A DNA stretch of 64,000 bases from Cordylochernes scorpioides (Eukaryota > Arthropoda > Arachnida > Pseudoscorpiones > Chernetidae): NCBI GenBank assembly GCA_030710605.1, contig CP092868.1, positions 23,748,987 through 23,812,986 on the forward strand, read 5' to 3'. Position 1 is the stretch's first letter, and every line of letters begins with the position of its first letter. Shown here one piece after another: positions 4,501 to 63,372 of the stretch. The notes beneath the pieces are model-generated. The model did not search any database, was not told the origin of the DNA, and worked only from the letters and a program-made list of their open reading frames with translations. Made by a program: the position numbers and the translations under genes.

Positions 4501-7500
4501 AAATAGTCTTCTTTCTTATCTCCACTCAATCATATTAGGGTATCAAGCCTGTAGAGCTTGTTGAACATCATGACTGGGTGAAGTAGTAGCGTCTACTTTT
4601 GTCATTAAGACTGGGAACACTACTCAGTAACAGGCCGACTTAGCTCCAATATGAAATGTCCGCCTCAGACATGAGGAACAGACGCCATGTACAGCCGCTC
4701 CTAACATGAAGTACAGATCATCCTGTATGCCTGAAGCCCTTACGGGGTACTATCAGTCGCGCCAGCTGAGCCCAGGATTTTTAGTGAGCTTGTTACTGCT
4801 CCTCCTCCTCCTTTTTCATCCTGCTTGGAACCGGCAAAGGCGGAGTTTATAAAAGTTCATGAGATCTGTAAAGACAGGAATTTTTAGTATTTAGAATTTA
4901 GTAGTACATAATCAAACACCAAGGTTCCTATTAAACTAAGGAGAAAACTGTGTTTGATATTAAATTCAATCAAAGTATAAAAATAGAGCTTTCAAATATT
5001 TAATTTCTTATATACATTCATGGACAAAACTTAAGGAAGTTGTACCTTTTAGCATGTATATCAGGATTCAGACAATAACTCTGAAAGACATTACAGTGAC
5101 CTTTATTGAAGACACACAAGTTAACCAAGTGTGAACAAAACTTAAGGAAGTTTTACCTTTTATCATGTATATCGGGATACAGACAATAACTCTGAAAGAT
5201 ATTACAGTGACCTTTATTGAAGACACACGAGATAACCAAGTGTGAACAAAACTTAAGGAAGTTTTACCTTTTATCATGTATATCGGGATACAGACAATAA
5301 CTCTGAAAGATATTACAGTGACCTTTATTGAAGACACACGAGTTAACCAAGTGTGAACAAAACTTAAGGAAGTTTTACCTTTTATCATGTATATCGGGAT
5401 ACAGACAATAACTCTGAAAGATATTACAGTGACCTTTATTGAAGACACACGAGATAACCAAGTGTGAACAGAACTTAAGGAAGTTTTACCTTTTATCATG
5501 TATATCGGGATACAGACAATAACTCTGAAAGATATTACAGTGACCTTTATTGAAGACACACGAGTTAACCAAGTGTGAACAAAACTTAAGGAAGTTTTAC
5601 CTTTTATCATGTATATCGGGATACAGACAATAACTCTGAAAGATATTACAGTGACCTTTATTGAAGACACACGAGATAACCAAGAGTGTGAACAAAACTT
5701 AAGGAAGTTTTACCTTTTAACATGTATATCGGGATACAGACAATAACTCTGAAAGATATTACAGTGACCTTTATTGAAGACACACGAGATAACCAAGTGT
5801 GAACAAAACTTAAGGAAGTTTTACCTTTTAACATGTGTATCGGTATTCAGACAATAACTCTGAAAGATATTACAGTGACCTTTATTGAAGACACACGAGA
5901 TAACCAAGTGTGAACAAAACTTAAGGAAGTTGTACCTTTTAGCATGTATATCGGGATTCAGACAATAACTCTGAAAGATATTACAGTGACCTTTATTGAA
6001 GACACACGAGATAACCAAGTGTGAACAAAACTTAAGGAAGTTGTACCTTTTAGCATGTATATCAGGATTCAGATAATAACTCTGAAAGATATTACAGTGA
6101 CCTTTATTGAAGACACACGAGATAACCAAGTGTGAACAAAGACTTTCCACTTGCTTATGTTTTGTATATGAATGTATTTTATATGAAGGTGTTCTCTGTA
6201 TACATTTCTTTGTGTTGTTCCAGATTCTTCGGCCATCCAGGAGATGCCATTACATTATTTGGTTTCCGTCAAGACCAGGTTAGTATTGTAGTAAGGTTTG
6301 TTTGTTTATTGTCAAACTGGTGGAGAAAGAAAAATTATAATTACAGTAGAACTACCTCCCTGTAAAGGACAGCTAGTTTCATAGCCAAAGTGTCCTTTAG
6401 AGAGAGGTGTCCTCTTACCGGAGAGTCGCTAAATAGTAAGCCTGGTAATTTTGGCGATGAAAACTGTCCTTTGTAAAGAGGTGTACTCTAACGTGAGTGT
6501 CCTCTCATGGAGGTTGTTCTACTGTAGTAGGTTATTCTCCCTTGTATGCGGAACAAACAAAATAACTTAAATATTAGGGGACAGCATGCCATCTATACAC
6601 CAATACCTCGCTTTGCGTCGTTTCGTTTTGCGTTTTTTTCGAAGTTGCGTCGCTGCTTAATTTTTACTGATTTTCACTGTGCGTCGTTAGATTTTCGAAG
6701 TTGCGTTGTTTTGAATTCGAGTCTTTAATTTTTTTATTTTATTTTTGAAATTTTTTCCTAAAATATGGCAACACCTTTGTTTTTGATTGCGCCTTCACAT
6801 ATTTTCATTTGCGTCGTTTCAATTTGCGTCGTGTTTTTTTGGAACGTAACCCCGACGCAAAGCGAGGTATGGGTGTATATAGAAATTAAAACTTTTTTTA
6901 TCATGAATATTTATTCTTTTAACACAAAATATATCTCTATTCATTTTACTGCAATGAGAAAACCTGAATACTGGGAAGGTTTGTCAGTGATGAGACAGGC
7001 CCTTCCCAGTATTTTTCTCTTTGCAATAAGGCCAGTAGGAAATTGTTTTTAAAAAATTTAACATTTGGAGGAAAATAAATTCTAATTCACTAATTAATAT
7101 ACTTAATTAGGATAATATTGGACTTAATTTGCATATTCTGAGGTCAAAACTATGGTCTTTACAGACGTATTTCTATATTGTTTTAAAATTCCAACAAGAT
7201 AGGTCAAAAATGCCCGCAGAAAAAACAAACATTTCATATATAGTAGAACCTCCCTTTAGCAGACACCCCGCTAGCGGACACCTCTCCACAAAGGACAGTT
7301 TTAATTTGCAAAATTACCATTTTTACAATTTAGCAACTAACTCTCCGGTAAGAGGACACCTCTCCCTAAAGAACAATTTGGCTCTGCAACTAGGTGTTGT
7401 TCTTTACAGGGAGGTTCTATTGTATATGGTAAATTCGTCAGAAGTCTCCACCGTACTTCGCCCTACAGAGCAGTCCCTTACTTGTGCTACTTCTTCCTCC

Positions 7501-10500
7501 CGCCACGTAGAGGTGGACTTCTGGGCAGGATTTGGATTTGGTCTTATTACCTTGTGTTTATAAACACACACACACACAAAAACCTTTATTAAGACACACT
7601 GGTCTTACAGAGGATTCTCCTTGGGGTTACAAAACGGAGAAACCTATGAAAGTGGGAAATATACAAAGGGGTAAAAAATGGAGAAAGATTATATACACAT
7701 GATAGATATATACAGATTATTATTTGAATGATCCTATGGAAAATAAGAATATGGATTTGTGTTTATAATCTATAATTCAAATTGTGCCTTATTGAAATCA
7801 AATGAAAGGAATTGTGGTGTTGCAGTGTGAGCTGGGAGGATGTCTCTTCGAAGTGTGCATCCAACTAGCCATCATCATGGTGGGCAAACAGATCATGAAC
7901 AACATCACTGAACTCTTCTATACGTAAGTACTTATACAGGCACCTGCAGCTCCAGAACACATTTTGGCTTGGATTAGATGTACTAAACAGGACCTTTGGA
8001 AGAGGCCGCTGCTTATCATAAAACAACTCGAGGAGCATGAACTCATAGAATTTGTGTAATCTTTACACAAGGGGATAAGAAACAACAACACTTATAAGGC
8101 AATAACGTCCATTCTATATACAGTATAACATACTCCATGAGAGAACACTCCCGCTAGAGGACACCTCTCTACAAAGGACAGTTTTCATTTACAAAATTAA
8201 CATTTTTATTACAGTAGAACCTACCTGTAAAGGAAACTTAATTGCAAAGCCAAAATGTCCTTTAAAGAGAGGTGTCCTCTTACCGGATAGTTACAAAATA
8301 GTAAAAATGGTAATTTTGTAAATGAAAACTGTCCTTTGTATAGAGGTGCCTTCTAGCGTAAGTGTCCTCTCATGGAGGTTCTACTGTATTTAACAACTCT
8401 CCAGGAGAGGACACCTCTCCCTAAAGGACACTTTGACTCTGCAACTAGGTGTCCTTTATAGGGAGGTTCTAGCCTCAAAGCATGAATGTTTCTTTTAAAC
8501 ATTAAAAAAACTTCTACTGTCCTTACTGCCATGAAAAAATATATTGGAGGGGGCTTGCTACATCAGTGGTGAATACTTTTAGCGGTTTCGCCCATTTAAT
8601 ATACCAGACCGCTTCTCTTAGAGCTCTAATACTGTATTATACCCATATATAAGCAGAATCATTCAATGCATTATTAGAGCTCTAAGAGAAGCGATCTGGT
8701 AGATTAAATTGGCGAAACGCTGGGAGGGTTCACCATTGATGAGCCAAGCCCCCCGCCCAATATATTTTTTCATCGCAGTAAGGACAGTAGAAGTTTATTT
8801 TATGTTTAAAAGAAACATTCGGGCTTTGATGCTTCCATAACTTATACCTACACGTAAGTACACTCAGAGAACATTCAATATAGTACCTACAGTGATAAAT
8901 ATGTTTTAATTATGGAATGATTAAAAATCAACGAGAATAGTTGATATTTATTCCGATAGATGGCGCAAGCCATCAGCAACTTTCAGTTGCACGATAAAGA
9001 GATGCCTTTTTAATAAATATGCTTTAGTTAGCTGAAAAAGGGATTGTGCACTGAAGCTTCCTTTAATAAAGTAAATAAAACGAGTTGAACTAGGGTCCTT
9101 TTTTGTTGCTGATTTTTTTTGTTATATACTCTTGAACAAAATTTGAGAGGGGAAAGTCTTTAATATCCTTAGCTGTTTATTTTTTCAAGAAGAAGACAGA
9201 GACAATTTTGCTTACGCTTTGTTATCTCATGTATCTTCAATAAAGGTCACTGTAATATATTTCAGAGTTATTGTCTGAATCCCGATATACATGCTAAAAG
9301 ATAAAACTTGCTTAAGTTTTGTCCATGAGTGTGAGTAATAAACAAGGTTATCTTGAATCAGTATTTGTTCATTTCAAACCACTATAGTAGTTCTTCTTCT
9401 TTCTTGTCTTCACTCAATCACATCAGGGTATCAAGCTTGTTGAGCATGCCGACTTAGCTAAAAAAAAAAAGGCCGCCTCTGACATGAGAAACAGACGCTG
9501 TATGTAGCCACTCCTAACATGAGGTACAGACTCATCCTGTATCCCTGGATTATGAGTCCTTACAAGATACTTTCAGCCGACCCAGCTGAGCCCAGGTTTT
9601 TTTAGCGACCCCTTCTCACCCCGACTCCCCTTCCTCCTTTTTCATCCGGGCTTGGGGCCGGCAAAGGCGGAGTTCTATAGTAGTTGTTGAGAGAGATAGT
9701 AGAGGATACGACAGAGTACACATACAGTACATGTGGTGTATTACAGGAAGATCATGAATTCTACCATTGATCAAAGTAGAGGAGAAGACAGAGTACACAT
9801 ACAGTACATGTGGTGTATTACAGGAAGATCATGAATTCTACCATTGATCAAAGTAGAGGAGAAGACAGAGTACACATACAGTACATGTGGTGTGTTACAG
9901 GAAGATCATGAATGCTGCCATTGATCAAAGTGGAGGAGAAGACAGAGTACATATACAGTACATGTGGTGTGTTACAGGAAGATCATGAATTCTACCATTG
10001 ATCAAAGTAGAGGAGAAGACAGAGTACATATAAAATACATGTGGTGTGTTACAGGAAGATCATGAATTCTACCATTGATCAAAGTGGAGGAGAAGACAGA
10101 GTACATATACAGTACATGTGGTGTGTTACAGGAAGATCATGAATTCTACCATTGATCAAAGTAGAGGAGACGACAGAGTACATATACAGTACATGTGGTG
10201 TGTTACAGGAAGATCATGAATTCTACCATTGATCAAAGTAGAGGAGACGACAGAGTACATATACAGTACATGTGGTGTGTTACAGGAAGATCATGAATTC
10301 TACCATTGATCAAAGTAGAGGAGAAGACAGAGTACATATACAGTACATGTGGTGTGTTACAGGAAGATCATGAATGCTATCGTTGAAGTAAAGGGATAGA
10401 CAGAGTACATATACAGTACATCTGGTGTGTTACAGGAAGATCATGAATTCTACCATTGATCAAAGTAGAGGAGACGACAGAGTACATATACAGTACATGT

Positions 10501-11084
10501 GGTGTGTTACAGGAAGATCATGAATTCTACCATTGATCAAAGTAGAGGAGACGACAGAGTACATATACAGTACATGTGGTGTGTTACAGGAAGATCATGA
10601 ATTCTACCATTGATCAAAGTAGAGGAGAAGACAGTGTACACATACAGTACATGTGGTGTGTTACAGGAAGATCATGAATGCTACCATTGATCAAAGTAGA
10701 GGAGAAGACAGAGTACATATACAGTACATGTGGTGTGTTACAGGAAGATCATGAATGCTACCATTGATCAAAGTAGAGGAGAAGACAGAGTACACATACA
10801 GTACATGTGGTGTGTTACAGGAAGATCATGAACTGGTGGAGACAATGGTGGAGGGCCAGAGAAGGTCCCCAGAGGGACGCCACGACCCGCTGGGAGCTGG
10901 ATTACAATCTGCAGGAGTGTGACAGCTTGGCTCTCTTTGATGAGTACCTGGAGATGGGTGGGTGTTATCTTTCTCTACAACTGCACTAGATTTCTGACAC
11001 TTAATTATATTTTGGAAGACAATATGGTATATAAAAATAAAAAAGGCATATATCCTGACCAGTATATATAATATGGTAATATGG

Positions 11085-14100: not shown

Positions 14101-14587
14101 TCGTAGATCGCGAAAAACATGGTGTCGCTGGAGACCCATTGGCGATTCTCTACTAAACTCTGCAGTGGTAGCAGAGGCGCCATATTCATTGTACATAGTG
14201 TATATAATGCATATTATCTTTTTTTAAATAGTGCAGACTGTGCACTTTGCATGTATTGACAAGATGTCAATAAAATTAATTTAATTGTCAATGTTTGGCA
14301 GGCCTTCATGATCGCCTACACCAGCGACTTCATCCCCCGCCTGGTGTATATGTACGTCTACAGCGAGCATGGCACACTCTGGGGCTACATCAACAACTCC
14401 CTCTCCTACTTCAACACCTCTGACTTCCCGGCCAACGTCATGCCGGAGAACCAAACTCTGGAATACATCAACTCCGTCAAGATTTGTAGGTCAGTTTATC
14501 TCTTACTTTCTGGGAATACCAGTTTCTTATCTTTCCCCTAGAGAGAAAATAGTGGTAACCCGGGCTCTCTCTCTCTCTCTCGGCGGT

Positions 14588-14626
<39 letters not shown>

Positions 14627-17600
14627 ATGGCCCCTGCGCAAGGATGACACGCAAAATCGTGAAGCGTTCTCTCTCTCTCACCTGGTGTGTGAAATCTCTC
14701 CCCTATTCTACAATTTACATACTTTTAAACCTGTCTATTGGCTGTTTTTTTTTTTTTAATCAACTTCCAACCAACAAATGAACTTCAAAAATGTTGGTTA
14801 TTTGATGTAATTCCATGTTTTAAATAAGGATAGCTTGTTCTCATTAAACTGGTTCTGAAAGTTTCTTGTCACTAACTTTTTTAAATGTTACAAAACCTAT
14901 TTTGTAAATAGACAGAATAACCTATCCTCATAATTTGTAAATACAGTTAAACCTTTCTATAACGTCCCCCTCTAAATAGCGCCTTCCTCTCTATAGCGCC
15001 CGATTTTATATATGTACTACGATGCGATTTACATTAAAAGTGACCTGTCTATAGCACCCCCTCTCTATAGCATCCTATTTTGGTGAGTCCCAAGAGGGGG
15101 CGCTATAGACAGGTTTACTTGTATTTACATAGTGATAAAGCACAATTTGGATTATAGATTAGAAACACAAGGTAATAAGACCAAATCCAAATAAATAGTG
15201 TGTGATGTAGCAACGAGTAGCAACGCTGTTACTGAAGAATCACACACTGTTTATTTATTTGGGTCTTATTACCTTGTGTTTATTTACATAATATTGTCAC
15301 GTATAAAATTAGGAAAAGACAAACCTCAGAATGGCACGGCAATATATTTAATGTGAAAAAAAATAGTACAAATGTAATATTGTACTGGGATAAGGTGCAT
15401 AAATTAAGAAAAAGGCATCTCCTTATCGTGCAACTGAAAGTTGCTGATGGCATGCGCCATCTATCGGAATAAATATCAACTATTCTCGTTGATTTTTAAT
15501 TATTCCAGAATTGGCCAAATACCCATTCTTGATTAATCAAGAAAAAATCAGCAACTTTCAGTTGCACGATAAGGAGATGCCTTTTTCTTAATATATTTAA
15601 TGTAAGAACAAATCAACATTTATAGAATACCAGAAAGGCAATGAGAGAAGTTTACAGAGTAGGAAAACATAAATATAAAAATTAACAATCTATACATAAA
15701 ATGATAAATATTTCGCTACATAGTTCCTTCCCTATGGGAATTGTGACTCACAGCTTCCAATCTGACATAGATCTGACATGCCTCTGTCAAGGATATCCTT
15801 GGAGTCTTGAAACTTTGTCCCTAGTACCTTTGCGTCTTCTTTACTGTAATGTGAAGTGCGGCTTTGTTGTCTTATGATCTATAGGGACATTGTCTTCTTG
15901 GAGGGAAGTCTTTACTGTAACACGGCAGTGGAATTCTGGAGTCAGTCATGGAAAAAATGAAGACTACAACCCCCATGGCCTAAAGTTCAGCTCGGAAAGC
16001 TTCAGTTTGTCTTCCTTAAACTACCCAACATCTCCACCAAAATATAACAGAAGATTAGGAAAGACAAACCATCCTTGGTTGGATGTAGTCCCTGATGGAG
16101 CTATTTCAGGTCATGTCAAAATCTCATGATAGGTTTTACTCTATGTGAAGAGAAACAGTAGAACCTCCCATGAGAGCCCACCTAAAATACCTGAATACGC
16201 CTATTCTCTCTTGAAGGTGGTCTTTTATTGGAGGTTTAGATATATCAAGTCGTACAGAGGTGTTTGCTCTTCACTTCTCTTTTTTATCTTCATGGCTGGC
16301 TGAAGTAGAATGCATCTGCTATTACCATTAAGACAGGGAGCACTACTCAGTAGCAGGTTGACATAGCTCCAATATGAAATGGACACCTCTGACATGAGGA
16401 ACAGACGCCATATACAGCAGCTCCTAACATGGAGTACAAACGCTGCTCATCCTGTATCCCTGGATTAGGAGCCCTTACAGGGTACTATCAGCCGGGCCAG
16501 CTGAGCCCAGGTTTTTTAGTGAGCTTGTTACTGCCCCCCCTCCTCCTTTTTCATCCAGACTTGGGACCGGCAAAGCAGAATTAGTCGGTTACTAAATAGA
16601 TGGATTGGTCATGGAAGGTTTTCCGATAGTTTACTCCAAGTAAATTTTGAGAGGAGTGTCTGTGTGGATCCAGGTACCAAGACTACAGGCTCCCTCCAGA
16701 ATCTGAGAAGAAATACAACCTCACCATGGAGTACTGGCACATTTTTGCCGCCCGCCTCAGTTTTGTGGTGGTCTTTGAGGTACGTTCTCAGGATGACAGA
16801 ACTGAGTTAAACAATCTATAAGTAACAATTTTTAATTTTTATGTGAGATGTTCCAGCAATAGCAGCGTTACCATCTTCAGACTAGGGTATTTTGTGTGGA
16901 TGGTAGAAATTCTGTAATCGGTGTTGTGTTCTCTACCTAACAAAAATAGCACTTGACGAACACTATAAGGTATAAGCCATTTATTTCTATAAATAAGATA
17001 CTTTCACTCTCCTCTTACACTCTATATACATCCAATCATTTTTACATATTTAATTTTCTATCAGAAAATTAATACATATCTACATATATGCTGCATTTTT
17101 TCTTTAAGAATAAAATTTGCATATGGAATCATTACAATCGGAATATCACAAATAGAAGGTAAAGAATATCATAATTATAGGTTGGATTTTTATCATTTTG
17201 TAGACTCCATTAACCTTTTTTGAAAAGTTTTTGTCCTGACATTTCGACAACCAAAGCGGTCTTGTAGATTAAATTGGCCAAACTGCTGGGCGGGTTCACT
17301 ACTGATGAGCCAAGCCCTCCCAATATTTTTTCATCGCAGTAAGGACAGTAGAAACTTGTTTTATGTTTAAAAGAAACTTTCGTGCTTTAATGCTTTCATA
17401 TATTATATCTAGATGGCACCTTATCGTTTTATAATTAACCAAAGAATTGTATATATCTGCTAATAAGTTTCCCATTTTAAAAAGGGCGATAGAAGGGTGT
17501 TTAGTGTTCCCCTATGTACATGAATAATCATTGTATGTGAAGGTCTAGGGAACAAAGTTGGCTGTGGTGTTTGCAGCACCTGGTGTTCTTCATAACAGGA

Positions 17601-20060: not shown

Positions 20061-20439
20061 ATGCCCTTTTATATAAACTTAATTGATGGATCGCCTTTTG
20101 ACTCAAATATATAGATTTACATTACACCCTCCCATTAACAACCCATGTGATGAAACTTGGTTTAACCTCCACTGAGACACCTCTAATAAGAGACCATCTC
20201 CAGGAGAGACTAAAAGTATCCTTGTTATATTAAGGAGTTCTCAAGGTAGGTTGTTCTACTATATTAGAGAAAATTAACCAAAAAGAGAAAGGATGACAGT
20301 AAATAGGTATATATATAGTTGATTCTCCATTTAAGACTGATATACATCACTAGAAATTTCATGTCTTAAACCCAGTATGTATAGTACAAAAGTGAAATTA
20401 ACACAAAGCAATAACGCGCCATCTATACATATAAAATGA

Positions 20440-20600
20440 AAGGACCTAAAAGCACGAATGTTTCTTTTATACATAATACAAACTTCTACTGCCAACTTCA
20501 CCACTGATGAGCCAAGAGCCCTCCCAATATATTTTTTCATCGCAGTAAGGGCAGTAGAAGTTTGTATTATGTATAAAAGAAACATTCGTGGTTTTAGGTC
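20440..20600. repeat. Family C foldback, core deleted
   Basis: Both arms (gaatgtttcttttatacata and its reverse) remain with ccactgatgagccaag, but the GAAA strand is gone. Confidence 0.65.
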
Positions 20601-20825
20601 CTTTCATTTTATATGAAAAATGAAATTGTACTGAGATAAGGTTGTTGAATATTGTAAAGAAAAAAATCCAGCCATCTGCTGGAATAACTATCAACTAATC
20701 ATGGATTTTTTTTAATTATTACAGAAAGTTGGCGCTTCTTGATTTATCAATAAAGGGTATTTGGACAATAAATCATGAAAATAATACATTTTTTGGATTT
20801 GTTTGCTTGTTATCTTGTTTCTAAT

Positions 20826-25202: not shown

Positions 25203-25519
25203 TTGTGAAATTGCCTTAAAATAGTTTCTTTCTAAAAAAAGTTTCTCCTTTAACAATATGAAGAGATTTCATAAGTTTTAAAACATCTTGTAGCATTTAA
25301 GCTCAAATGATTATAATATAGGTAGGAGATTTTTTATTTTTCCTCTCCTATGGATCACAAACCTTAGTCCAACATCCCTAGAAAATCTCCCAAGAAATAA
25401 ATCTACATGACGTAACCTCAGTAATTGGACTTCCACTGACATTGTAGATAAAACCAAGAAGATTGCTTCTACTGAAAAATCACAAATAGATTACTTATTT
25501 GGTATTATGTCCATATGCT

Positions 25520-25860
25520 CGAAGCATATTATATATTTATAAATATATGTAATTTCTTGTCCTCAAAGCTTATGTCCATTGTTCTTCTAAAATACCCATT
25601 CCAAGAGTCTATCAACAGTATCACTATAAAAGAAAGTTCCAAAAATGCAATATAACAGCGGTATGGTAGATTAAACTGGCGAAACCGCTGAGAGGGTTCA
25701 CCACTGATGAGCCAGGCCCTCTCATTAATTTTTCCATTGCAGTAAGGGCAGTAGAAATTGTTCAAAAAGAATCTTACGCCTTTAAAATAGCTTTGAATTT
25801 TGATAACAGATGGCGCGCTAGTGCATCATATTATTTGGTCTTGTTACCTTACAATAAAAA
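25520..25860. mobile_element. Family C element with best-preserved reordered hammerhead core
   Basis: Contains the core at 25658-25724, then tttccattgcagtaagggca and, near the end, taacagatggcgcgctagtg. The related element at 62945-63372 shows that such sequence forms long terminal inverted repeats. Confidence 0.75.
25658..25724 (+). ncRNA. Family C hammerhead-like core (reference copy)
   Basis: Stem III GCGGT 25658-25662 with ACCGC 25684-25688; NUH base A25663; stem I TGGT 25664-25667 with ACCA 25700-25703; CTGATGA 25704-25710; stem II GCCAG 25711-25715 with CTGGC 25676-25680; GAAA 25681-25684. An extra helix pairs TGAGAGGG 25689-25696 with CCCTCTCA 25717-25724. All three stems abut the core bases exactly, but the strand order differs from known hammerheads. 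Confidence 0.6.
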
Positions 25861-27429: not shown

Positions 27430-27850
27430 AGCATTTAAGTACAAATTTTTCTTTTTAAATATAAATCAAACTTTTCTACTGCCCTTACTGTGATGAAAAA
27501 AATATATTGGGTGCAGCCACGGATCATGGCGTGTATGGATTTGTACATCTCCTTGATATCCTGGTAGCCGATGCCCTTGGCGATGTACTTAGAGAACTGT
27601 TTCTTGTAGGCTCTGTTGAGGAGGGATTCGATATAGTTGGCTACGTGGATGCCATAGATATGGTTACGGTGTACCTGGGGGTTGTACTCCTTCTCATATC
27701 CTGGGAACCTCTTGTTACTGTGGCTGATATGAAGAACCCTCTCAGCAGTCTGGTAGATTAAATGAAACCTCTGTGAGGGTTCACCAACCAATAAGCCAAG
27801 TCCTCCCAATATATATTTTTTTTAATTGCAGTAAGGGCAGTAGAAAATTT
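27430..27850. mobile_element. Family C element carrying an RpL5 gene fragment
   Basis: Inverted ends ttctactgcccttactg (about 27474) and cagtaagggcagtagaa (about 27827), each with an aatatat block inside, enclose a ribosomal protein fragment next to a degraded core (ctggtagattaaatgaaacc). Confidence 0.75.
27505..27737 (-). pseudogene. RpL5: Ribosomal protein L5 (uL18) fragment
   Basis: The minus-strand frame reads SNKRFPGYEKEYNPQVHR, NHIYGIHVANY and AYKKQFSKYI, matching the middle-to-C-terminal part of eukaryotic RPL5 (roughly residues 180-255 of about 300). There is no stop over about 75 codons, but two short stretches are missing compared with the family. No start, intron or poly-A, and element sequence on both sides. 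A captured fragment, not a gene. Confidence 0.85.
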
Positions 27851-27854
27851 TGTT

Positions 27855-28335
27855 TTATACAGTTAAACCTATGAAAAACAATAGAAAAAAATAAAAGATA
27901 AGTGGGTCAGATGTTGATATTTAAAAATAAAGAAGGCATCTCCTGACCACGAACACATGTGCTTTTTGGAACCAAAAATCTTTTTGGTCGCAGTGGTTAC
28001 AGCCTTCTCCATGCTGACGAGCGCCAACAGCGCGAAACGCGTTCATGAATGACTTTTCTTGATTTATCAAGAAATTGGGTTGGCCAAATATCACGGAGCA
28101 AGCTAAATAAACGTTTAGTTTATTTTTGCTCCACTAGATGGCGCTCTGCCATCTAAAAAGCACATGTGCTCGTGGTCAGGAGATGCCTTCTTTATTTTTA
28201 AACCTGTCTATAGCGCCCCTTCTTGGGACTCACTAAAATAGGGTGCTATAGACAGGTCACTTTTAATGTAAATCGCATCGGGCGCTATAGAGAGTGAGGC
28301 GCTATTTAGAGGGGCGCTATAGACAGATTTAACTG
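27855..28335. mobile_element. TACAGTTAAACC MITE interrupted by a hammerhead element with inverted ends
   Basis: The inner element (about 27936-28195) has near-perfect 45-bp terminal inverted repeats (aaagaaggcatctcctgacc and its reverse) and carries a divergent hammerhead. The MITE resumes at aaacctgtctatagcgcc. Confidence 0.75.
28010..28049 (+). ncRNA. Hammerhead ribozyme, divergent family A copy
   Basis: CATG stem I, CTGACGA 28014-28020 (position 7 may be any base), stem II GCGC/GCGC with loop CAACA, GAAA 28034-28037, minimal stem III, triplet GTT, CATG. Both stems differ from the copy at 2827 by compensatory changes. GTT normally cleaves more slowly than GTC. Confidence 0.75.
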
Positions 28336-32267: not shown

Positions 32268-33893
32268 TAGTCTCCACAAACTTCACACTTTGCAACTTCC
32301 AAGCAACTGAGCATTCTGCAGTGCAACATAAATGGATTGTGCTCAACAGCAACAAAAATAAAATTAGAAGAAATAATGGAAATAGCTGAAAAACAAAAGA
32401 TACAAATTATAGCCCTACAGGAAACCAAATTAAATGAAAAGTACAATCTCAAATATAAAAACTACAATATCCTCAGAAAAGACAGAAATAAAGAAGGGGG
32501 TGGCCTTGCATTTTTAATCAAGAATTTGTACTATGAAGACATAGCCATTAATATTCCAAACACATCAGACCTCGAAGCCCAAGGTATCAAAGTCTACCTC
32601 AATCAAAACAAAACCATCAACATATTCAATATGTATCACCCACCAAACAATAAACTTATTGACGATGGAACAATGGCTCAATTTCTTACAGACAACACTA
32701 TTATTGTAGGAGACCTTAATGCCAAACATCAACTATGGGGATGTTCCACGCCAAACCCAAGAGGCAAAATACTTTCAAACTTATTTGACGACAATGCCTT
32801 CATGTGCTTAAATGATGGGAATCCTACCCACCATTCCTACAGCTATAATACTGCACAAGCACTTGATATAAGTTTCTCCAGTCCTGACATTTTCCACAAA
32901 TGCAAATGGCAAATATTAAAAAGTATTGGAAGTGATCATTTGCCTATTTTGATAGAAATTAGCACCAAGACCAAAACCAGCTCAATTAAAGAAAAATTCT
33001 GGAACTTCAAAAAGGCTAATTGGAATCTTTACCAGCAAAACACCAATGAGGACTTTAGAAATATACCCACTAGAATAAAAGATCTGGAACAAAATTGGAT
33101 ATCTTTCAAAAACACCATTATTAAAGCAGCCAAAGTTTCAATACCAAGAGGTAATATTAAGAAATGGATTCCAAATTATACACACCAGGCAAAAGATATT
33201 CAAACACTTATAACTAAAAGAAATGAACTACAAAAAAAGTGCACCCAAAACCAAACAAATTGTAGAACTGAACTGAACATTGTGAATGCAAAAATAAAAA
33301 GATTATACGTAAATATGAAAAGGGAAAAATGGAAACAAACTTGTGAAAACCTGAACCCAAGAAACCCAAATACAAAACTTTGGCATTTGGCAAAACAAAT
33401 TGACAGAGCCCAGCCACAAACTGAAAACACAAATATGATTAAGAATACAGATGGTACCCCAGCAACTAATGACAAAAATGCTGCTAATCTTTTAGGTAAT
33501 TCATATCAAATAAGTAGTAAAATCAAATTTGAAATAAAAGATAAGAAAGTTGAAAAAAAGGCCCGAAAGATTATCCATGACTGTAAAAACGTCACTAGCA
33601 CTCATAATATTTTCCATGAAAAAATCAATATGAAAGAGCTAGATTATGCATTAGAAAACACTGACCTGAACAAGACTCCTGGGCCAGATGGAATCCATGG
33701 CCAAATGATATCAAACTTGGGCAAAAATGGCAAAGAAAAACTTCTTGATATTTTCAATAACTCCTGGAAAACTGGAAAATTGCCTCAAGACTGGAAAACT
33801 GCAACAATAATTCCTATTAAAAAACTTGACAAATCTGCTGATGACCCAAAAACTACCGACCTATCTCCCTCACAAGTATTTGCTGCAAATTAA
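32268..33893 (+). pseudogene. LINE ORF, endonuclease and start of RT
   Basis: Endonuclease motifs: LQCNINGL near the start, IIALQETKLN, GGGLAFLIK, NMYHPP, VGDLNAKHQLWG and SDHLPIL (catalytic Asp-His). It continues to the RT entry (DLNKTPGPDGIH, WKTATIIPIKK) and then leaves frame near 33860. Frame is open from just after a stop at 32265. Confidence 0.85.
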
Positions 33894-35130
33894 TGGAAAA
33901 AATTATACTCAGACGACTCACCTACCACCTCGACACAAGAAATCTCTTACCAAAAGAACAATATGGATTTAGGAAAGGACATGGGACAATAGACCAACTC
34001 TTATTTTTCACACAAAAGGTAAAAGATGCACAAAACAGAAAACCAACTAACCACACAATAGCTGCTTTTTTAGACCTTACACAAGCTTTTGATAAGGGGT
34101 ATGGAAAAACAAGTTAATTACAAAATTATACAAACATTTCAAAATTGATGGAAAAGCTATCACTTGGATAAATGATTTCCTTAAAAATCGATACATCAGG
34201 GTCAATTATAATGGCACTCTATCTAAAACCTTCAAATTGTACCAAGGATTACCACAAGGATCAGTCCTTAGCCCAACTCTCTTCACCCTATTTATTGCAG
34301 GCATAGAAGAAAAAATTTCACATAAAACCAATATTGGACTTTTCGCTGATGACATTATTCTATGGAGCAGCAATACTAACTGGAAAAAAGCTGAAAGAGA
34401 TTTGAACAAGACTCTTTTCCACCTAGAAAAATTTGCTAATAAACATAAATTAGAATTTAACCCCCAAAAATCTGAAACCTGTCTTTTTACTACCGATAAG
34501 AAACTATACAAAATAAGACCAAAAATTATTCTGAAAGAACAACAATTGCAATATAATAAACATCCTAAATATCTTGGCTACACCTTGGATCCAGAAATTA
34601 ACTCCAGTAAACATATTGAAGAAGTTATTAGAAAAGGAAGAGACCGACTAAAAATCCTGAAATATATTTCAGGAAGAGAGTGGGGAGCCGATGCAACCAC
34701 ACTAAAATTAACTTACACATCTCTAATTAGACCTATCCTGGAATATGGATATCAAATCTATGGTACAGCATCTGAAACAAATCTAAAATCACTGGAAAGG
34801 ATACAACTAAGTGCAGCTAGAATTATTACAGGTCTTCGAAATACCTGCCCTAACGATATTGTACTTTACGAGGCAGACATTATGCCCTTAAAGGATAGAA
34901 GAAGCTACAATCTGCCAAAATATATAAACAAAATCAAGAGTTATGGAAACAAACACAGAACTTCCAAGTACATACTTAATTGGGAATCCAATTTAAGACT
35001 CAAAAAAGAAGGCCCTATACACCTGGCCAAAAGAAATGAATTTTTAAAATATAAAGTGGAAAAAAATTATTTAGCAGAAAAATTTCTCCATGCAAACCAC
35101 TACAAAATGTTATTTTTAATGCTACTTTAA
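33860..35130 (+). pseudogene. LINE ORF, reverse transcriptase domain
   Basis: Two frames together give EQYGFRKGHGTIDQLL, FLDLTQAFDK, then after a frame change near 34100 YQGLPQGSVLSPTLF and FADDIILWSS (the catalytic Asp pair). The C-terminal thumb runs to about 35100 before another frame change. Confidence 0.85.
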
Positions 35131-35970
35131 ATGAACCCACCAACAAACAATACCAAAATCCAGAATACTTAAAACAATTATCATTAGAAATAATTAATAA
35201 CATTCCTAAAAATGCAATAACTATCTATACCGATGGTAGCAGAGACGAGCTAGGACACACTGGCAGTGGCTGTCTCATTAAAACCACAAATGGCATTGAG
35301 AAAATGAACAGAAGAAACCCAGATTTTTGCTCAGTCTTCAGATCAGAACTTATAGCCATCTATGAAGCCTTAAAATCCATCAGAAATACTAATTATCAAG
35401 ATATCTGGATTCTTACTGATAGTAGAAGTGCCATACAACACTTGAGTCACACAGGGGAACTTAGAGACAAAGTAAGCAGGAACATAATTGGTTATCTCCA
35501 AAAACTCAAAAACCTCAAAAATTCACCTTCAATGGATACCCTCACACGTTGGCATTGAAGGCAATGAAGCTGCTGATGTGCTAGCGAAAAAAGGCACAAA
35601 AGAACCCTTGCCACAGAAAAATAAACTTACTTTTAAAGAAATAGAAACAATAGCCAAAACAAAAATAAACAAGAACTGGAGGATCCCACCTAAGCACAGT
35701 TGGTACAGTGGAGTGAACCCAGGAGGAACTCTGAACATCAGAAATAGACAGCATCAAACAACACTAACAAGATTTAGAACAGGCCATCTCAAGCCATTGA
35801 AGATAGAAAATAATAACAAAATTTATCCCACTTGCCCAAAATGTAGCTTGGCACCTGCAGCTCCAGAACACATTTTGGCTTGTATTAGATGCACTAAACA
35901 GGACCTTTGGGAGAGGCCGCTGCTCATCATAAAACAGCTCGAGGAGCATGAACTCATGGAATTCGTGTAA
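35131..35970 (+). pseudogene. LINE ORF, RNase H and C-terminal zinc-knuckle region
   Basis: RNase H catalytic set: YTDGS, FRSELIAI, LTDSRSA and, after a frame change near 35520, HVGIEGNEAADVLA. Then [17 protein letters not shown], a CCHC-like cluster, and the stop at 35968-35970. Confidence 0.85.
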
Positions 35971-48254: not shown

Positions 48255-49020
48255 AATTTTAAAATTAAAGAGAGCGAGATAAACTTTTGTCTATTTTTAT
48301 TTATAAAAAAAGGGATGGAATGAACCTATTGTTCTGTACCACTGACTGGAAAATCTCCAAGGAGCTTCTTTAAAAATCTGTTTATGGGCCATTGAGAGCA
48401 GCCTTGCTGAGAGAGTTATGAAAAACCAAGGGGTGTGCACAATATTAACAACATTTTTCTTATGGTTCCATTTTATTTTATAGGTCAGTAGATCAGTCAG
48501 TAGATCCTGTTTAATCAATAGATTCATGATGTACTGCATAAACATTAAGGTAAGGGGAACAAAAGGGTAATTTGGGTACATAAGTGAGGTTCAGCCAAAT
48601 TCAGACAGGAATGCAAACTGAAGCCTCGAAAAAAGAGGAGTAGTCGGCTGGCTGCTTTCACAGAATTTGATTCAAGGTTCCAGATTAGAGAGTGCACACA
48701 TCCTTACCAAGAATGCAGATTTTTTTGGATAGGTTCTCGAGTTAGGATAACAGCAATATCTGGTACCCGCGCTGTTATGCTAGTATAATGCAATGCCATC
48801 TTTTGCAATCATTATATTTACCCTAATTAAAAAGTAGGGTTGTTATGATAAGAACAACTAAATAGAATTGTATAAACAAAAATAGTTTATTACAAGTAAT
48901 ATAAGGTGATTTCCTTCATCTGGGAGAAATTTAGTTGAAGTTTCGCTTTTTGATGTTATACTGTAGTGTACCAATCGCTGTAATATCTTATGAAGTTCAA
49001 TGTGAATATTCGAAACTATT
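48255..49020. other. No gene recognised
   Basis: A 94-codon minus-strand frame at 48297-48581 has no recognisable domain. The rest is AT-rich. Confidence 0.4.
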
Positions 49021-49021
49021 A

Positions 49022-49190
49022 TAGACGCGTAAGGGAGGGTTCACCACTGATGAGCCAGGCCCTCCCTTTAATTTTTCCATTCAGTAAGGGCAGTAGAAAT
49101 TGTTTAATTTTCAAAAGAATCATATGCGTTTTTAATAGTTTAAAATATTCATAACAGATGGCGCGCTGATGCATCACAATATAAGAGTTC
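49022..49190 (+). mobile_element. Family C element, 3' half
   Basis: GGGAGGG 49034-49040, ttcaccactgatgagccagg, CCCTCCC, then tttttccattcagtaaggg and aacagatggcgcgctgatgc. The upstream strands of the core are missing. Confidence 0.75.
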
Positions 49191-51288: not shown

Positions 51289-53239
51289 GTTGCTCAACAA
51301 TGGACAAAAACGATAATCCACCCAATATTTAAAAATGGAGATCCGGACAACCCGTCAAATTACAGAGGAATATCCCTGATTTCTAACCTATCGAAATTAT
51401 TTACATCTATCTTGAAGACAAGATTGAATGATTGGATGGAGAGAAAGTCAATTTTGGCAGAAAATCAGGCTGGTATTAGAAAAGGCTACTCTTGTCAGGA
51501 CCACATTTTCACGCTCGTATCATTAATTCAAATGACCCTTAGCCGTAGAAGGGGAAAGTTATATGCCTTCTTCATTGACCTAAGGAAGGCCTTTGATACT
51601 GTGCAGCACCATCTACTTTGGAAAAAATTAGCATTAAATGGTCTGAGCTGTCGATTTATTAAACTAATTAAGAACTATTATACCCAAATGACGGCAACAG
51701 TCAGATGGCGGGGTTCCTTCACGGAGGCTATCAAAATACAAGCGGGAGTATTGCAGGGGGAGCCGTTGTCACCTTATTTATTCATTCTCTTCCTAAACGA
51801 TCTGGTACCCCAATTCGATGAATCAGAATTGCCAGGCATAAATCTTGAGAATTATGGAACTATACACCTTTTACTGTATGCAGACGACATAGTGATCTTA
51901 GGAGAATCGAAAATAAATTTGCAATTGAAGATTAACTTACTTAAAAAGTACTTAGAAGAGAACTGCCTAACGTTAAACCAAAATAAATCTAAAATAATGG
52001 AGTTTAGAAACGGTGGAAGAACAGCTCGTTCCGAGACATGGTTTTGGGGTCAGCAACCCCTGACAATAGTAGCTAAGTATACATATCTGGGTTACCCTCT
52101 GACTACAAAAATCTCGACCCAATATGCTTCCCAATACTTTAGAAACAAAGCACTGAATGCAATTAATGCACTTTGGAGAATCCTTACAAAGGCGCGAATA
52201 AAGTCCTTTACCTCAGTGATGAAACTTCTTGACACTATTGTTCTTCCTACTTTACTATATGCGGCACCAATGTGGGCAATTAACCAGCTGAAGACAGTCA
52301 ATAATACCCAAGATGCATTTCTTCGTCGTCTCTTAGACTTACCAAACTTCACACCAGGATATGTCCTCAGAAGAGAATGTGGAAGAATATCAACTGAACT
52401 TAATGCTCTAAAACTCACATTAAAGTTTTGGGTCAGGATTTTAAAAATGGAGACGAGCAGATTACCACATGCTTGCTTAAACTATCTCTGGAAAGTCACA
52501 GCGAAAAAGGAAATAGAAAACAGTTTTACTCAAAATTTAATAAAAATTCTAGACTCTAAGGGATATTCCTTTCTTAAGGGCTGCGAAGACTACTTAGCCA
52601 TACAGAAAGAATTGCCAGGCATAATTAGAACTACCACAGACCAACTAATTCAAAACGATCAGATGAAAATCACTGATTCAACCCACTTTGCTCACTACAA
52701 ATTTTTGAGTGAATCATTCATGACAGAGGAGTACCTACGATTAAATATCTCGCTTCCCAACAAAAGACTAGTTGCACAACATAGAGTTTTATGGCAATTT
52801 TTCAGGGAAGAAAGAAAAGACTTCTGGAAAGAAAATGGCCGGAACTGTTTACTTTGTAAGGATCTCATGGATGATAATTTGGTTCACTATTTCTTCCAAT
52901 GCCCTCTCTTAACAGAAAAACGTACTGAAATTTTTCCAAGCCCTACCTCTGGTCAATTTAGATACCATCGCATATGTCAACTTCTCTCTTCAGCTCTGAA
53001 TGATGAATTACTGATTGTTAGATACTTTAAGTTCTGCACAGAAGCTGGGCGCATGAGAAAGAATGCAGGGCAAAGGATACCGGAGGATGAACTATCTGTA
53101 AATAGGTAACTGAATGTGAGACAAACCTTATTTTGTTGTAAATGTTTCCTCTTCCCTCTCCTCTTGTTGACGTGTAAATACGGCGAATCCTGTATGGGGC
53201 GGAATGCCCTAAATAAAGGCTTTTGTTGTTGTTGTTGTA
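51289..53239 (+). mobile_element. LINE family 2, 5'-truncated, with 14-bp target duplication
   Basis: Flanked by tacccgtttcatga (51275-51288 and 53240-53253). Starts inside the RT domain and ends aaataaaggc then (TTG)n. The frame from about 51310 to 53109 is uninterrupted, so insertion is recent. Confidence 0.93.
51412..53109 (+). CDS. LINE family 2 reverse transcriptase, C-terminal part of ORF2
   Basis: 565 residues from the first Met (the frame opens upstream near 51310 with NYRGISLISNLSK). RT motifs: LAENQAGIRKGYS, AFFIDLRKAFDTVQH, GVLQGEPLSPYLF and YADDIVIL with the catalytic Asp pair. A C-terminal CLLCKD...HYFFQC zinc knuckle follows. The endonuclease domain is missing through 5' truncation, so the copy cannot move itself; the given Met is not a natural start. 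Confidence 0.9.
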   Translation: MKTRLNDWMERKSILAENQAGIRKGYSCQDHIFTLVSLIQMTLSRRRGKLYAFFIDLRKAFDTVQHHLLWKKLALNGLSCRFIKLIKNYYTQMTATVRWRGSFTEAIKIQAGVLQGEPLSPYLFILFLNDLVPQFDESELPGINLENYGTIHLLLYADDIVILGESKINLQLKINLLKKYLEENCLTLNQNKSKIMEFRNGGRTARSETWFWGQQPLTIVAKYTYLGYPLTTKISTQYASQYFRNKALNAINALWRILTKARIKSFTSVMKLLDTIVLPTLLYAAPMWAINQLKTVNNTQDAFLRRLLDLPNFTPGYVLRRECGRISTELNALKLTLKFWVRILKMETSRLPHACLNYLWKVTAKKEIENSFTQNLIKILDSKGYSFLKGCEDYLAIQKELPGIIRTTTDQLIQNDQMKITDSTHFAHYKFLSESFMTEEYLRLNISLPNKRLVAQHRVLWQFFREERKDFWKENGRNCLLCKDLMDDNLVHYFFQCPLLTEKRTEIFPSPTSGQFRYHRICQLLSSALNDELLIVRYFKFCTEAGRMRKNAGQRIPEDELSVNR

Positions 53240-53306
53240 TACCCGTTTCATGATTTTTCAGGATGCCTTAATGACCAATTTTTTTGGTCGTTGAGGTACA
53301 GCTTGC

Positions 53307-53348
53307 ACCACGCTGATGAGGGCCAACAGCCCGAAACGCGTCCGTGGT
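53307..53348 (+). ncRNA. Hammerhead ribozyme, family A
   Basis: ACCACG, CTGATGA 53313-53319, stem II GGGC/GCCC, GAAA, ACGCGTC, CGTGGT; identical to 2827. Confidence 0.85.
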
Positions 53349-53544
53349 TAGCTTTTCTTGATTAATCAAGAATGGGTATTTGGCCAATTCTGGAATAATT
53401 AAAAATCAACGAGAATAGTTGATATTTATTCCGATAGATGGCGCAAGCCATTAGCAACTTTCAGTTGCACGATAAGGAGATGCCTTTTTCTTAATTTATG
53501 CACCTTATCCCAGTACAATATTACATTTGTACTAATTTTTCATA

Positions 53545-54411: not shown

Positions 54412-54486
54412 GTGTCAAGGGATGGGAATCGAACCCACGACCTTCCGCTTACCGGGCAGATGCCATGACCACTAGGCTACCCTGGA
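54412..54486 (-). ncRNA. tRNA-like cloverleaf, Thr(GGT)-like, probably a SINE head or pseudogene
   Basis: Minus strand: acceptor stem pairs 6 of 7, D stem GCC/GGC, anticodon stem 5 pairs with loop CCGGTAA, T arm GTGGG-TTCGATT-CCCAT. Base 33 is C instead of the invariant U, and there is no T-run terminator. Confidence 0.55.
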
Positions 54487-55375: not shown

Positions 55376-56793
55376 CACTGCGTGACATTGAAAATGGAAC
55401 ACCAAGAAATAGTGGCCAGAAAGTGATGAAACTCGGCAGACAGAGAGAGACAGGGACGAACAATAAGTGATCTTTATTTCAAAATGATAGTCATAATACA
55501 GAGCGAGAACGGCGTCGGCTTAGTAGCAAGTAGGACCACCGCGGACGGCGATGCACGCAGCAACACGTCTAGGTAGAGAGTCAATCAGAGTACGGATGGC
55601 GTCCTGAGGGATGGCTCTCCATTCCCTCTCAACCATTTGCCACAGTTCGTCTTCTGAACGCGGCTGTGGCAAGGCATGCAAACGGCGTCCAATGATGTCC
55701 CAGACGTGCTCGATTGGTGAGAGATCAGGAGAGTACGGTGGCCAGGGAAGCATCTGTACATCTTGCAGAGCTTGTTGGCTAATGCGAGCAGTGTGCGGTT
55801 GGGCGTTATCCTGCTGATAAAGGGCATTGGGTACCCCCTGAAGGTAGGGGAGTGTCACCGGTCGCAGCACATCATCACGATACGTTTGGCCGTCATAGTG
55901 CCCTGAATACGAAGTAAAGGTGACCTGGAATCATACGCGATTGCGCCCCAAACCATGATTCCACGTTGTCGCACGGTGGGGCGTTCCACAATTGCTGCCG
56001 GATTGGACCTTTCTCCACGTCGACGCCACACGCGTACACGGCGACTATCACTGGACAAGCAGAAACGCGACTCATCTGAGAACACGACCCTGTGCCATTC
56101 CGTCATCCACGTCGATCTAGCCCGGCACCATTCCAAACGTTGGCGCCTATTCGGTGGGGTCAATGGCAGTCTTCTTAGCGGACGGCATGAGTGCAAGCCA
56201 TTAGCAACCAATCGACGGGAAATGGTTCTGGTCGAGATGGAATGATCTAGGGTGTCTTTCACATGTTGCAGGATGGCGGTACAAGTGGCTTGTGGGGCCG
56301 CCACTGCTTGTCGAAGGATACGCCGATCCACACGTGCTGACGTCACTCTGGTTGCACCGACATTCCTATAAATTGCCACATTTCCTTGTTCCAACCATCT
56401 TCTCCACAGTCGGTGCACCGTGGACGCACCAAGGTGTGTATCAGCTGCGATTTGACGTATGGACCAACCTGCCCTTTTCAGTCCGATCACCATGCCCCTC
56501 GTAAAAGCGTCTGTCTGCTTAAACTGCCTCCGTTTACGATGACCTGGCATTCTCTGTTATTACACGTGTCTTTTGACACAAGAACAAAATTTCTACAATG
56601 ATTTTCCTTGAAGAAATAACGACACGAATACTGTTCTTTCTGCAAGTTCCTTCCCTTATATCTTACTCCATGTGCGCACGAGAGCTGCGCATTTTACATC
56701 ATTTGCATAACTCGGTTAGGCGCGTCTACCCTGAAATTTGCATAATTTTCTGGCCACTATTTCTTGGTGTTCCATTTTCAATGTCACGCAGTG
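55376..56793 (-). mobile_element. Tc1/mariner-superfamily transposon, TIRs intact
   Basis: Terminal inverted repeats start cactgcgtgacattgaaaat and extend about 47 bp. TA lies on both sides (55374-55375, 56794-56795). 1418 bp with one transposase gene broken by a frameshift. Confidence 0.95.
55520..56550 (-). pseudogene. Tc1-like transposase, one frameshift
   Basis: Starts MPGHRKRRQF at 56550. N-terminal helix-turn-helix (GWSIRQIAADTHLGASTVHR), second DNA-binding part, catalytic VFSDESRF. The frame changes near 55860, then QQDNAQPHTA and SPDLSPIEHVWD give the second Asp and the Glu. I count 32 residues between that Asp and Glu, against 34 in ordinary Tc1. Ends GGPTCY. Confidence 0.9.
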
Positions 56794-57126: not shown

Positions 57127-57344
57127 TGTTGAAGTTTGAGATTGAATCAAGGAATAAAAGGATTATTTATTAAACAAAGTAACTTAAAACAAGATGTTAA
57201 AGTAGCAAAATTTTAAAGGCAAGTATATGTATAAAGGCGAGAGACAAGGACTATATATATTGACGTCGACCGCAGCGCCGCCGCGGCCGTTGATTGGTCG
57301 ATCCCCCCAATGCTCCACGCCAATTTTGATCGCTTATTCCAACA
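57127..57344 (-). repeat. Copia 3' LTR
   Basis: Starts tgttgaagtttgagattg in plus-strand reading and ends ttattccaaca; a TATATATA at about 57260 could be the promoter element. Confidence 0.92.
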
Positions 57345-58102
57345 CTCCCTCTCGATCCAAAATGTTCAGTAGACCTCTTAAGTAGTGGAATTTGTTTCGT
57401 GGAAGAGGTTTAGTCATTATATCAGCTAGCTGTTCTGAGCTGCAAACATGATGCACTTTAAGTTCACCTTCTTCATGTTTGGATCTAATGAAGTGGTAGC
57501 GAACATCAATATGTTTCGTTCGTTTGTGGAATACTGGATTTTCAACAAGTTTTATTGCTGCTTGGTTGTCGATATAAAGTTCAGTTTCTTTAGTAATATC
57601 ACAGCCGATGCCCTGTAGAAGTCTTCTGATCCAAATCAATTCCTTGGCAGCACTGCAGGCAGCGATGTATTCACTTTCGGTGGTTGAAAGTGCGATAATT
57701 GGTTGTCGTTGGCTTGCCCAAGAAACAGTTCCTCCGTTCATCATGAAGGCATAACCAGTCGTACTTTTTCTGGAGTCAACATCACGAGCAAAATCACTAT
57801 CAGAGTAGCCAACAAGTTGGTCTTGTCCAGTGAAGAGAATTCCCATGTGTGGAGTGCCTTTCAGATAACGGAAAATATTCTTCACTGTTGTACAATGTGC
57901 AGGTCCTGGATATTCTAGGAATTTACTCACTTGTGAAACTGCATAAGTGATATCTGGACATGAAACACATGATGCAAACATAAGGGATCCAACAGCTTCT
58001 CGAAAAGGGAATTTAGGCATCTTTTCCTTTTGTTCTGAAGTAGGACAGTCCTGCTTTGTTAAGATGACAGATGGATCCATAGGCACCGAAGCAGGAATAC
58101 AG
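57334..58102 (-). pseudogene. Copia RNase H
   Basis: GYSDSDFARDVDSRKSTTGY, STTESEYIAA, LYIDNQAAI and TKHIDVRYHFIR are the copia RNase H set. The stop codon lies about 10 bases inside the 3' LTR. Confidence 0.9.
57345..57353 (-). promoter_or_regulatory. Copia polypurine tract
   Basis: Minus strand gagagggag-type purine run directly before the 3' LTR, where second-strand synthesis would begin. Confidence 0.75.
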
Positions 58103-60182: not shown

Positions 60183-60339
60183 TAGTAAATTAAATTTTAT
60201 TGCCATCTATCATTAAATTTTTACACAAATAAATTTACTGGCAATGTGTTTCTTTTTTTAAATATCATCAAGAGATAATATTTGATGATATTTAAAAAAA
60301 GAAACACATTGCCAGTAAATTTATTTGTGTAAAATTTTA
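60183..60339. mobile_element. Foldback insertion in the copia gene
   Basis: 157 bp with long arms (actggcaatgtgtttctttt and its reverse) around atcatcaagagata, flanked by the 13-bp duplication acatttcttatgt (60170-60182, 60340-60352). Related to the foldback at 19940. Confidence 0.85.
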
Positions 60340-62944: not shown

Positions 62945-63372
62945 GAATATATATATATGATGCACTAGCGCGCCATCTGTTATCAAAATTCAAAACTATT
63001 TTAAAGGCGTAAGATTCTTTTTGATATTAAACAATTTCTACTGCCCTTATTGCAATGGAAAAATTAAATTGCTCGAAGCATATTATATATTTATAAATGT
63101 ATGTAATTCTACTGTCCTCAAAGCTTATGTCCATAGTTCTTCTAAAATACCCATTCAAAGAGTCTACCATTAGTATCACTATAAAAGGAAGTTCCAAAAA
63201 TGCAATATAACAGCAGTATGGTAGATTAAACTGGCGAAACCGCTGAGAGGGTTCACCACTGATGATCCAGGCCCTCTCATTAATTTTTCCATTGCAGCAA
63301 GAGCAGTAGAAATTGTTTAATATCAAAAAGAATCTTACGCCTTTAAAATAGTTTTGAATTTTGAATATATAT
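62945..63372. mobile_element. Family C element with complete long terminal inverted repeats
   Basis: Left arm from about 62995 (caaaactattttaaaggcg, then ttctactgcccttattgcaa) and right arm to about 63362 are reverse complements over roughly 100 bp. They enclose a core at 63213-63278. Confidence 0.8.
63213..63278 (+). ncRNA. Family C hammerhead-like core, slightly damaged
   Basis: As 25658 but GCAGT weakens stem III, and CTGATGA is followed by TCCAG instead of GCCAG. Helix IV GAGAGGG/CCCTCTC is intact. Confidence 0.45.

Follow-up and report, generated by a model that had tools for sequence, protein, structure and literature searches.

A type-SGC hammerhead ribozyme in an abundant, probably Penelope-like short retroelement of the pseudoscorpion Cordylochernes scorpioides

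Can a hammerhead whose core strands do not stand in a circularly permuted order be a working ribozyme, and what kind of genetic element would carry it? The question is raised by positions 25658-25724 (plus strand) of a 64,000-nucleotide stretch of the Cordylochernes scorpioides genome (hereafter the window, to which positions refer unless another locus is named). That interval contains the complete set of hammerhead core bases, together with four helices, in the order site block (S), GAAA block (G) and CUGAUGA block (C), with the last A of GAAA serving also as the first base of the stem III 3' strand, ACCGC. The original prediction described a complete core with a strand order that is not a circular permutation, folded into two hairpins with mutually pairing loops, the second of them closed by an additional helix, and held the order to be new. 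Re-reading the sequence bore out all of its letters as well as the complete core and the S-G-C order, and the two-hairpin architecture with its closing helix was upheld. The claim of novelty falls, since the order is that of a published and biochemically validated class (PMC10085705, in the portion of the article available to us). Judged by its sequence, the 25658 motif is a type-SGC hammerhead, and its extra helix is the I-II interaction stem of this type.

Eckert et al. (2023; PMC10085705, available portion) described 583 type-SGC hammerheads from environmental RNA. Precise cleavage was shown for five of them, and monomers of this order cleave; compensatory mutants covered all four helices in one ribozyme, and a sixth, without bases at the site, gave no cleavage. 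The pseudoscorpion motif resembles the HRIMA-1 motif and its variants from that source in S-G-C order, core bases, helices I-III, I-II helix and size. In the 25658 motif and in the diverged locus L031 (see below), CUGANGA, GAAA and an NUH triplet with H17 other than G are all conserved; stems I, II and III and the I-II helix covary, more weakly when L031 is set aside; and S-G-C is the order of all 21 descriptor matches, with none in any other order, in the window and 28 fetched stretches (288,176 bases in all, the stretches being chosen at ribozyme matches, with L001 and L002 overlapping). The linker between the stem I and stem II strands, typically 3 nt in the same source, is 8 nt in the window family and about 4 in L031, which does not exclude membership because the source says "typically". 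Stem III and the I-II helix directly abut in a few of the published members, whereas one base lies between them here. The coordinates are collected in Table 1.

Table 1. Parts of the ribozyme at 25658-25724, elements of its family, and other features of the window
Feature	Position	Strand	Details
Block S	25658..25667	+	stem III 5' strand GCGGT 25658-25662; H17 = A25663; stem I 5' strand TGGT 25664-25667
Predicted cleavage site	A25663^U25664	+	
Linker, stem I to stem II	25668..25675	+	AGATTAAA
Block G	25676..25688	+	stem II 3' strand CTGGC 25676-25680; GAA-ACCGC 25681-25688
Helix IV 5' strand	25690..25696	+	GAGAGGG; I-II interaction helix of type SGC
Block C	25700..25715	+	stem I 3' strand ACCA 25700-25703; CTGATGA 25704-25710; stem II 5' strand GCCAG 25711-25715
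Helix IV 3' strand	25717..25723	+	CCCTCTC; 7-bp helix
Element carrying the intact ribozyme	25504..25830	+	flanked at 25495-25503 and 25831-25839 by a 9-bp target-site duplication, TTATTTGGT
3' tail of that element	25804..25830	+	TAACAGATGGCGCGC..., 27 nt
Palindromic element	62959..63359	-	SGC ribozyme 63213-63279 (+); 24-nt tail 62959-62982 (-)
Head-to-head palindromic element	8471..8833	.	ribozyme copies 8545-8612 (-) and 8691-8757 (+), both mutated
Element beginning within ribozyme stem III 5' strand	17257..17436	+	8-bp repeat AACCAAAG at 17249-17256 and 17437-17444
5'-truncated copy	49004..49185	+	retains only block C and helix IV; short inverted piece at the 5' end; tail of 34 nt; duplication AGTTCAATGT (10 bp)
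Palindromic copy	20400..20620	-	block C at 20504; repeat TGAAATT (7 bp) at 20393 and again at 20621; tail at the 3' end of the minus strand
Chimeric element	27460..27859	.	two inverted arms; degenerate ribozyme 27744-27816 (+)
Diverged 5'-truncated copy	6971..7047	+	helix IV CTGGGAAGG/CCTTCCCAG
Copia-type gag and pol frames	57334-61439	-	some frames named by eye
Second LINE, endonuclease and reverse transcriptase	32271-35970	+	some frames named by eye
Tc-type transposase	55855-56556	-	some frames named by eye
U6 snRNA match	14573-14678		above Rfam gathering score
tRNA match	54414-54486		above Rfam gathering score
Clean tandem array	5024-6145		111-bp units
Clean tandem array	9698-10832		77-bp units

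The descriptor accepted any of the six block orders, with stems of at least 4 bp, G-U pairs allowed and gaps of at most 40. Its single match over the 64-kb window is the 25658 motif; the window's type I hammerheads are missed because their stem III is shorter. Dinucleotide shuffling of the window (400 times) yielded seven matches with all orders pooled and none in the SGC order. The RNA of 25655-25730 is more stable when folded than 200 shuffles of it (z -3.4), but the fold so scored consists of stems III and IV and of inner pairs that compete with the model; as pseudoknots, stems I and II lie beyond the program's reach. A search of the motif against Rfam returned no hammerhead and only two weak chance matches to snoRNAs, as is expected because covariance models cannot hold pseudoknots. 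Scans of the viral_contigs and genome_contigs collections with words of the family gave no matches.

The original prediction staked the fold on covariation of its stems in a larger alignment, and this test was passed. In 33 rows (alignment A3: 32 of 37 distinct near-full copies plus L031, omitting window:27744, L024:5084, L026:4499, L027:4252 and L016:5251, which are gapped, inserted or very diverged; A2 leaves out three A1 copies that are partial or gapped), 92.5% of the cells are paired and 11 of the 21 pairs show two-sided changes. None of 500 shuffles reached any of five measures, and controls with the structure slid along were 35-61% paired. L031 contributes much here: it is identical to the window ribozyme at 37 of 69 ungapped positions, and all 21 pairs form in it, 11 of them differing on both sides, around a core of CUGAAGA, GAAA and GUA. 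When it is removed, three pairs retain two-sided changes, a number reached by 1,491 of 2,000 shuffles; the 18 two-sided cells and the paired percentage both beat all 2,000. The strongest single pair is then a stem II pair, C-G or U-A according to subfamily; the TTGGC/GCCAA stem II that had been reported for the copies at 8690 and 17256 was confirmed. The window copies by themselves give a weak result (two pairs with two-sided changes, reached by 207 of 500 shuffles), and their alignment includes a two-sided A-T/G-C change in helix IV (columns 34/65). A simulation on the difference between the consensuses of two subfamilies put the chance that two or more of five changes are compensated pairs at 2.95e-4; one of these consensuses was typed by eye, and later intact copies of that subfamily agree with it. 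On these comparisons, the fold of the SGC ribozyme is supported by covariation.

Among five full-length window copies compared, the ribozyme is intact only at 25658. Stems III and II both contain mismatches in the 63213 copy; at 17256, CAAA replaces GAAA, and stem I and helix IV are mismatched; the 8690 copy reads TTGATGA, with stem III and helix IV altered; and the 8550 copy reads CTGATGT, with stem II and helix IV broken. The GUC cleavage triplet ascribed to 8550 and 17256 is indeed present in both, and 8690 reads AUC. Intact SGC copies are common among the fetched stretches outside the window. Searches for target-site duplications around nine window copies gave two clear cases (9 and 10 bp). 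Three others are less certain: one has an 8-bp repeat that stands among further short matches, one a 7-bp repeat, and one an AT-rich repeat that is at most 17 bp long. Of the remaining four, two are ambiguous and two have no duplication. The AT-rich repeat flanks the 62959..63359 element and overlaps its end; other 7-bp matches also occur in the searched flanks of 17257..17436; and no duplication was found in searches around 8471..8833 or 27460..27859. A Helitron reading was dropped, since target-site duplications are present. Between the arms of the chimeric 27460..27859 element lies a captured stretch coding for part of ribosomal protein L5 (72 residues, about 27512-27735, minus strand; best E 1.4e-17) in the same sense as the element's 3' arm, and this piece fits template switching to an mRNA.

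Long palindromes and duplications of 8-10 bp would also fit a foldback DNA transposon whose terminal inverted repeat is kept as a DNA hairpin, the likeness to a hammerhead no longer having a function. However, stems I and II, which pair between the hairpins, still covary, and families as diverged as those of the window and L031 have the core in common. Moreover, the tail sits on a single arm, the 5' ends are variable, and a coding piece of L5 has been captured. We regard a foldback origin as very improbable, and read the elements instead as copies of an RNA that carries a type-SGC ribozyme.

The family is very large. In the assembly (2,619,359,433 bases in 24 contigs), an exact 22-mer of the ribozyme, ACCACTGATGAGCCAGGCCCTC, occurs 29,910 times (14,950 + 14,960), and its reversed control does not occur. 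Copies have variable 5' ends and are 5'-truncated, and several form head-to-head palindromes. A 3' extension opening with TAACAGATGGCGCG is 24, 27 or 34 nt long in three elements, and palindromes bear it on one arm only; the tail of the SGC family is the AGATGGCGCG tail. For 101 copies in 285,154 bases, neighbours less than 150 bp apart are head-to-head in 19 cases, tail-to-tail in three and same-direction in none; at 150-600 bp, the corresponding numbers are four, four and five. One of these five is a true tandem pair, at L014 (2471-2947; period 371; 99.4% identity over 357 bases). Places 371 apart were also seen at C1:7606641 and 7607012, among the matches listed for ATGGTAG.

The original prediction had also allowed that, in tandem transcripts, the strands might instead make an ordinary nested hammerhead spanning two units; on this rival reading, the monomer would not be the working form. 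Part of this proposal stands: strands drawn from two direct repeats would give a type III-like nested fold, Penelope-like elements (PLEs) are often tandem according to the accessible text of PMC11167929, and tandem units do exist here, in the L014 pair, where a dimer fold could form, and in the same-direction arrangement of 5 of the 13 neighbours at 150-600 bp. Nonetheless, such a dimer is not needed, as published monomers of the S-G-C order cleave (PMC10085705, available portion). Tandem Repeats Finder shows no array at 25.6 kb; below 150 bp, same-direction neighbours are lacking against the 19 head-to-head ones; and helix IV, the closing helix of the monomer's second hairpin, covaries. A dimer as the working form has very little probability in our estimation, and the monomer is the form considered below.

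What moves these elements? In the accessible text of PMC11167929, a Penelope-like element bears an optional tail of 30-40 bp, which is put down to reverse transcription starting at either of two internal sites, and cleaves and extends both strands of its target; one-sided tails and head-to-head pairs would follow from two start sites and priming on two strands. Here, tails of 24, 27 and 34 nt are carried by some copies, and, as to the tandem or pseudo-LTR arrangement of PLEs, close copies are mostly head-to-head, with the one tandem pair at L014. To judge from these arrangements, 5' truncation, target-site duplications in some copies, a 3' extension on one arm and frequent head-to-head palindromes together make up the signature of PLEs. 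Mobilization of the SGC ribozyme by a LINE is unlikely by comparison. The window does contain LINE reverse transcriptases, and 5' truncation and variable duplications would also be compatible with them, but the 25- and 49-kb elements lack a 3' poly(A) (the 63-kb one abuts an AT run), the head-to-head arrangement with a one-sided tail of 24-34 nt is that of PLEs (PMC11167929, accessible text), and a GIY-YIG element of the same genome has the same ribozyme topology and the same head-to-head layout.

The window also holds four minimal type I hammerhead look-alikes, at 2833+, 28014+, 51045- and 53313+; the one tested matched Hammerhead_HH9 (53297-53362), with an E of 6e-5 and a score short of the gathering threshold. 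The word AGATGGCGC lies about 123 nt downstream of CTGANGA in three type I copies, with AGATGGCGT in the 2833 copy, and is common to type I copies and SGC element tails. By eye, a LINE reverse-transcriptase frame at 51289-53109 lies inside a type I hammerhead element, with TACCCGTTTCATGA on both sides. The shared word suggests that one retrotransposition machinery serves both types of ribozyme.

Hammerheads of known PLEs (PMC7229834 and PMC11167929, as far as these texts were available) are likewise found close to the 5' part of elements that encode a GIY-YIG reverse transcriptase, with a tail and repeated copies; they are nested minimal type I ribozymes, whereas those of the pseudoscorpion have the pseudoknotted SGC order. 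Animal retrozymes (PMC7229834, available portion) are likewise short, abundant, non-coding, non-LTR and hammerhead-bearing. However, retrozymes carry type I ribozymes in tandem repeats, and the pseudoscorpion elements carry an SGC ribozyme and are dispersed and mostly head-to-head when close; the nested type I hammerhead in short tandem repeats that marks the animal type I retrozyme is not what the family has. A pistol-resembling pseudoknot hammerhead (PMC11300833, available portion) shares hammerhead chemistry with a pseudoknot, but is set apart by its description, which is of a pistol-like secondary structure and connectivity and not of the SGC block order.

The same genome holds a protein-coding element with an SGC ribozyme of its own. 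A survey for GIY-YIG gave at least 146 matches, with 150 of 17,015 candidates scored. Of 11 loci, three are longer stretches, seven are pieces between head-to-head arms and one lies inside such a pair. One of them, L031, carries the SGC ribozyme twice, once in each mirrored arm; the descriptor found no hammerhead of any order in the other ten. The L031 ribozyme is located in the 5' region of the element, about 0.85 kb upstream of the open frame. This frame (817 amino acids read, in L045) has GIY-YIG near its N-terminus (residues 23-103, E 9.9e-6) and, by eye, reverse-transcriptase-like motifs, PF00078 being without a score. Among 87 relatives, the broadest aligns over 99% of the frame, and the close ones P0123, P0129 and P0136 carry PF00078 and PF01541. 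Reverse transcriptase and GIY-YIG endonuclease, the combination expected of a PLE, are thereby found in the L031/L045 element, and the window's own SGC elements are too short to encode them. The N-terminal endonuclease recalls the Naiad/Chlamys PLEs. Elsewhere, L029 has its endonuclease near the C-terminus, and GIY-YIG head-to-head pairs 1.4-4 kb apart occur, for example, at C14:2435506-/2439230+, C1:119836583-/119840556+ and C3:60214170-/60216778+. The tail word GATGGCG is absent from L031 and L045. With an SGC ribozyme at only one locus in 11, and no GATGGCG in L031 or L045, these loci do not point to the machine that mobilizes the window family, and the L031/L045 element is to be read as a relative in kind.

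Does cleavage leave a trace in the genome? A palindrome with both arms starting right after the predicted cleavage site would read TAATCTACCA followed directly by TGGTAGATTA, and this junction is found 46 times, spread over 21 of the 24 contigs. L041 is one of these sites, and five pairs of them are about 105 kb apart or less and may be later duplications. The same construction occurs at four places when centred one base upstream, two of which may likewise be later duplications, and at none one base downstream, the counts covering these three centres only. CCATGG is self-complementary, and joining at short homology could add to the cleavage-site centre. The junctions suggest that RNAs ending at the predicted cleavage site are reverse transcribed. 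Among the close pairs picked as L040-L044, L042 and L043 are not joined at that site. Of 74 5' starts, 23 lie upstream of the ribozyme, 20 of them by at least 12 nt, so uncleaved RNA is copied as well. Between 26 and 39 there are 23 of the 74 starts, and at 7-8 there are seven. A clustering of starts at the edges of the fold was not used, as the 7-8 peak includes four arms from picked close pairs (L040, L041 twice and L044); nor was the number of copies that begin with TGGTAG (26,490) relative to ATGGTAG (24,613), which has no neighbouring baseline.

We consider it very probable that a type-SGC ribozyme resides in a very abundant, short, apparently non-autonomous retroelement of C. scorpioides that is served by Penelope-like machinery, with a monomer fold, predicted self-cleavage and copying into cDNA. 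A single RNA would form two hairpins, one on stem III and the other on helix IV, and pairing between their loops would make stems I and II; going by homologous ribozymes and the genomic junctions, this monomer would cleave itself after A25663. A Penelope-like reverse transcriptase may then copy the cleaved RNA on one or both DNA strands, from either of two start sites that lie within the template some 30 nt from each other. Such copying would give elements with or without the tail and head-to-head palindromes, whose centre can sit exactly at the ribozyme 5' end. A wider proposal, that a non-circularly permuted hammerhead is resident in an animal PLE lineage with N-terminal GIY-YIG and in its non-autonomous parasites, cleavage setting the RNA 5' end and opposite-strand cDNAs of one target joining head-to-head, as palindromes centred on the cleavage site would record, has in our judgement even chances of being right.

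We found no prior report of SGC hammerheads in genomes or animals in a literature search limited to openly licensed texts, and, in the available portion of PMC10085705, the 583 published examples had not been found in genomes of known organisms, whereas here the ribozyme belongs to a dispersed retroelement of an animal genome. Two other papers among those texts name the work of Eckert et al., neither of them on genomes by its title. The class is already known; as far as these searches show, the host, copy number, element type, coding relative and cleavage-site junctions appear to be new. The SGC hammerhead, earlier obtained from anonymous environmental RNA, can now be placed in a host and its genome, in a family of mobile elements, and beside a relative that encodes protein. 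In the accessible text of PMC11167929, ribozyme mutants of a PLE still inserted in vitro, and no reads were seen at its cleavage site. The cleavage-site palindromes of C. scorpioides would be a natural record bearing on what hammerheads do in PLEs, and where permuted ribozymes live, and for what purpose, become testable questions in an animal.
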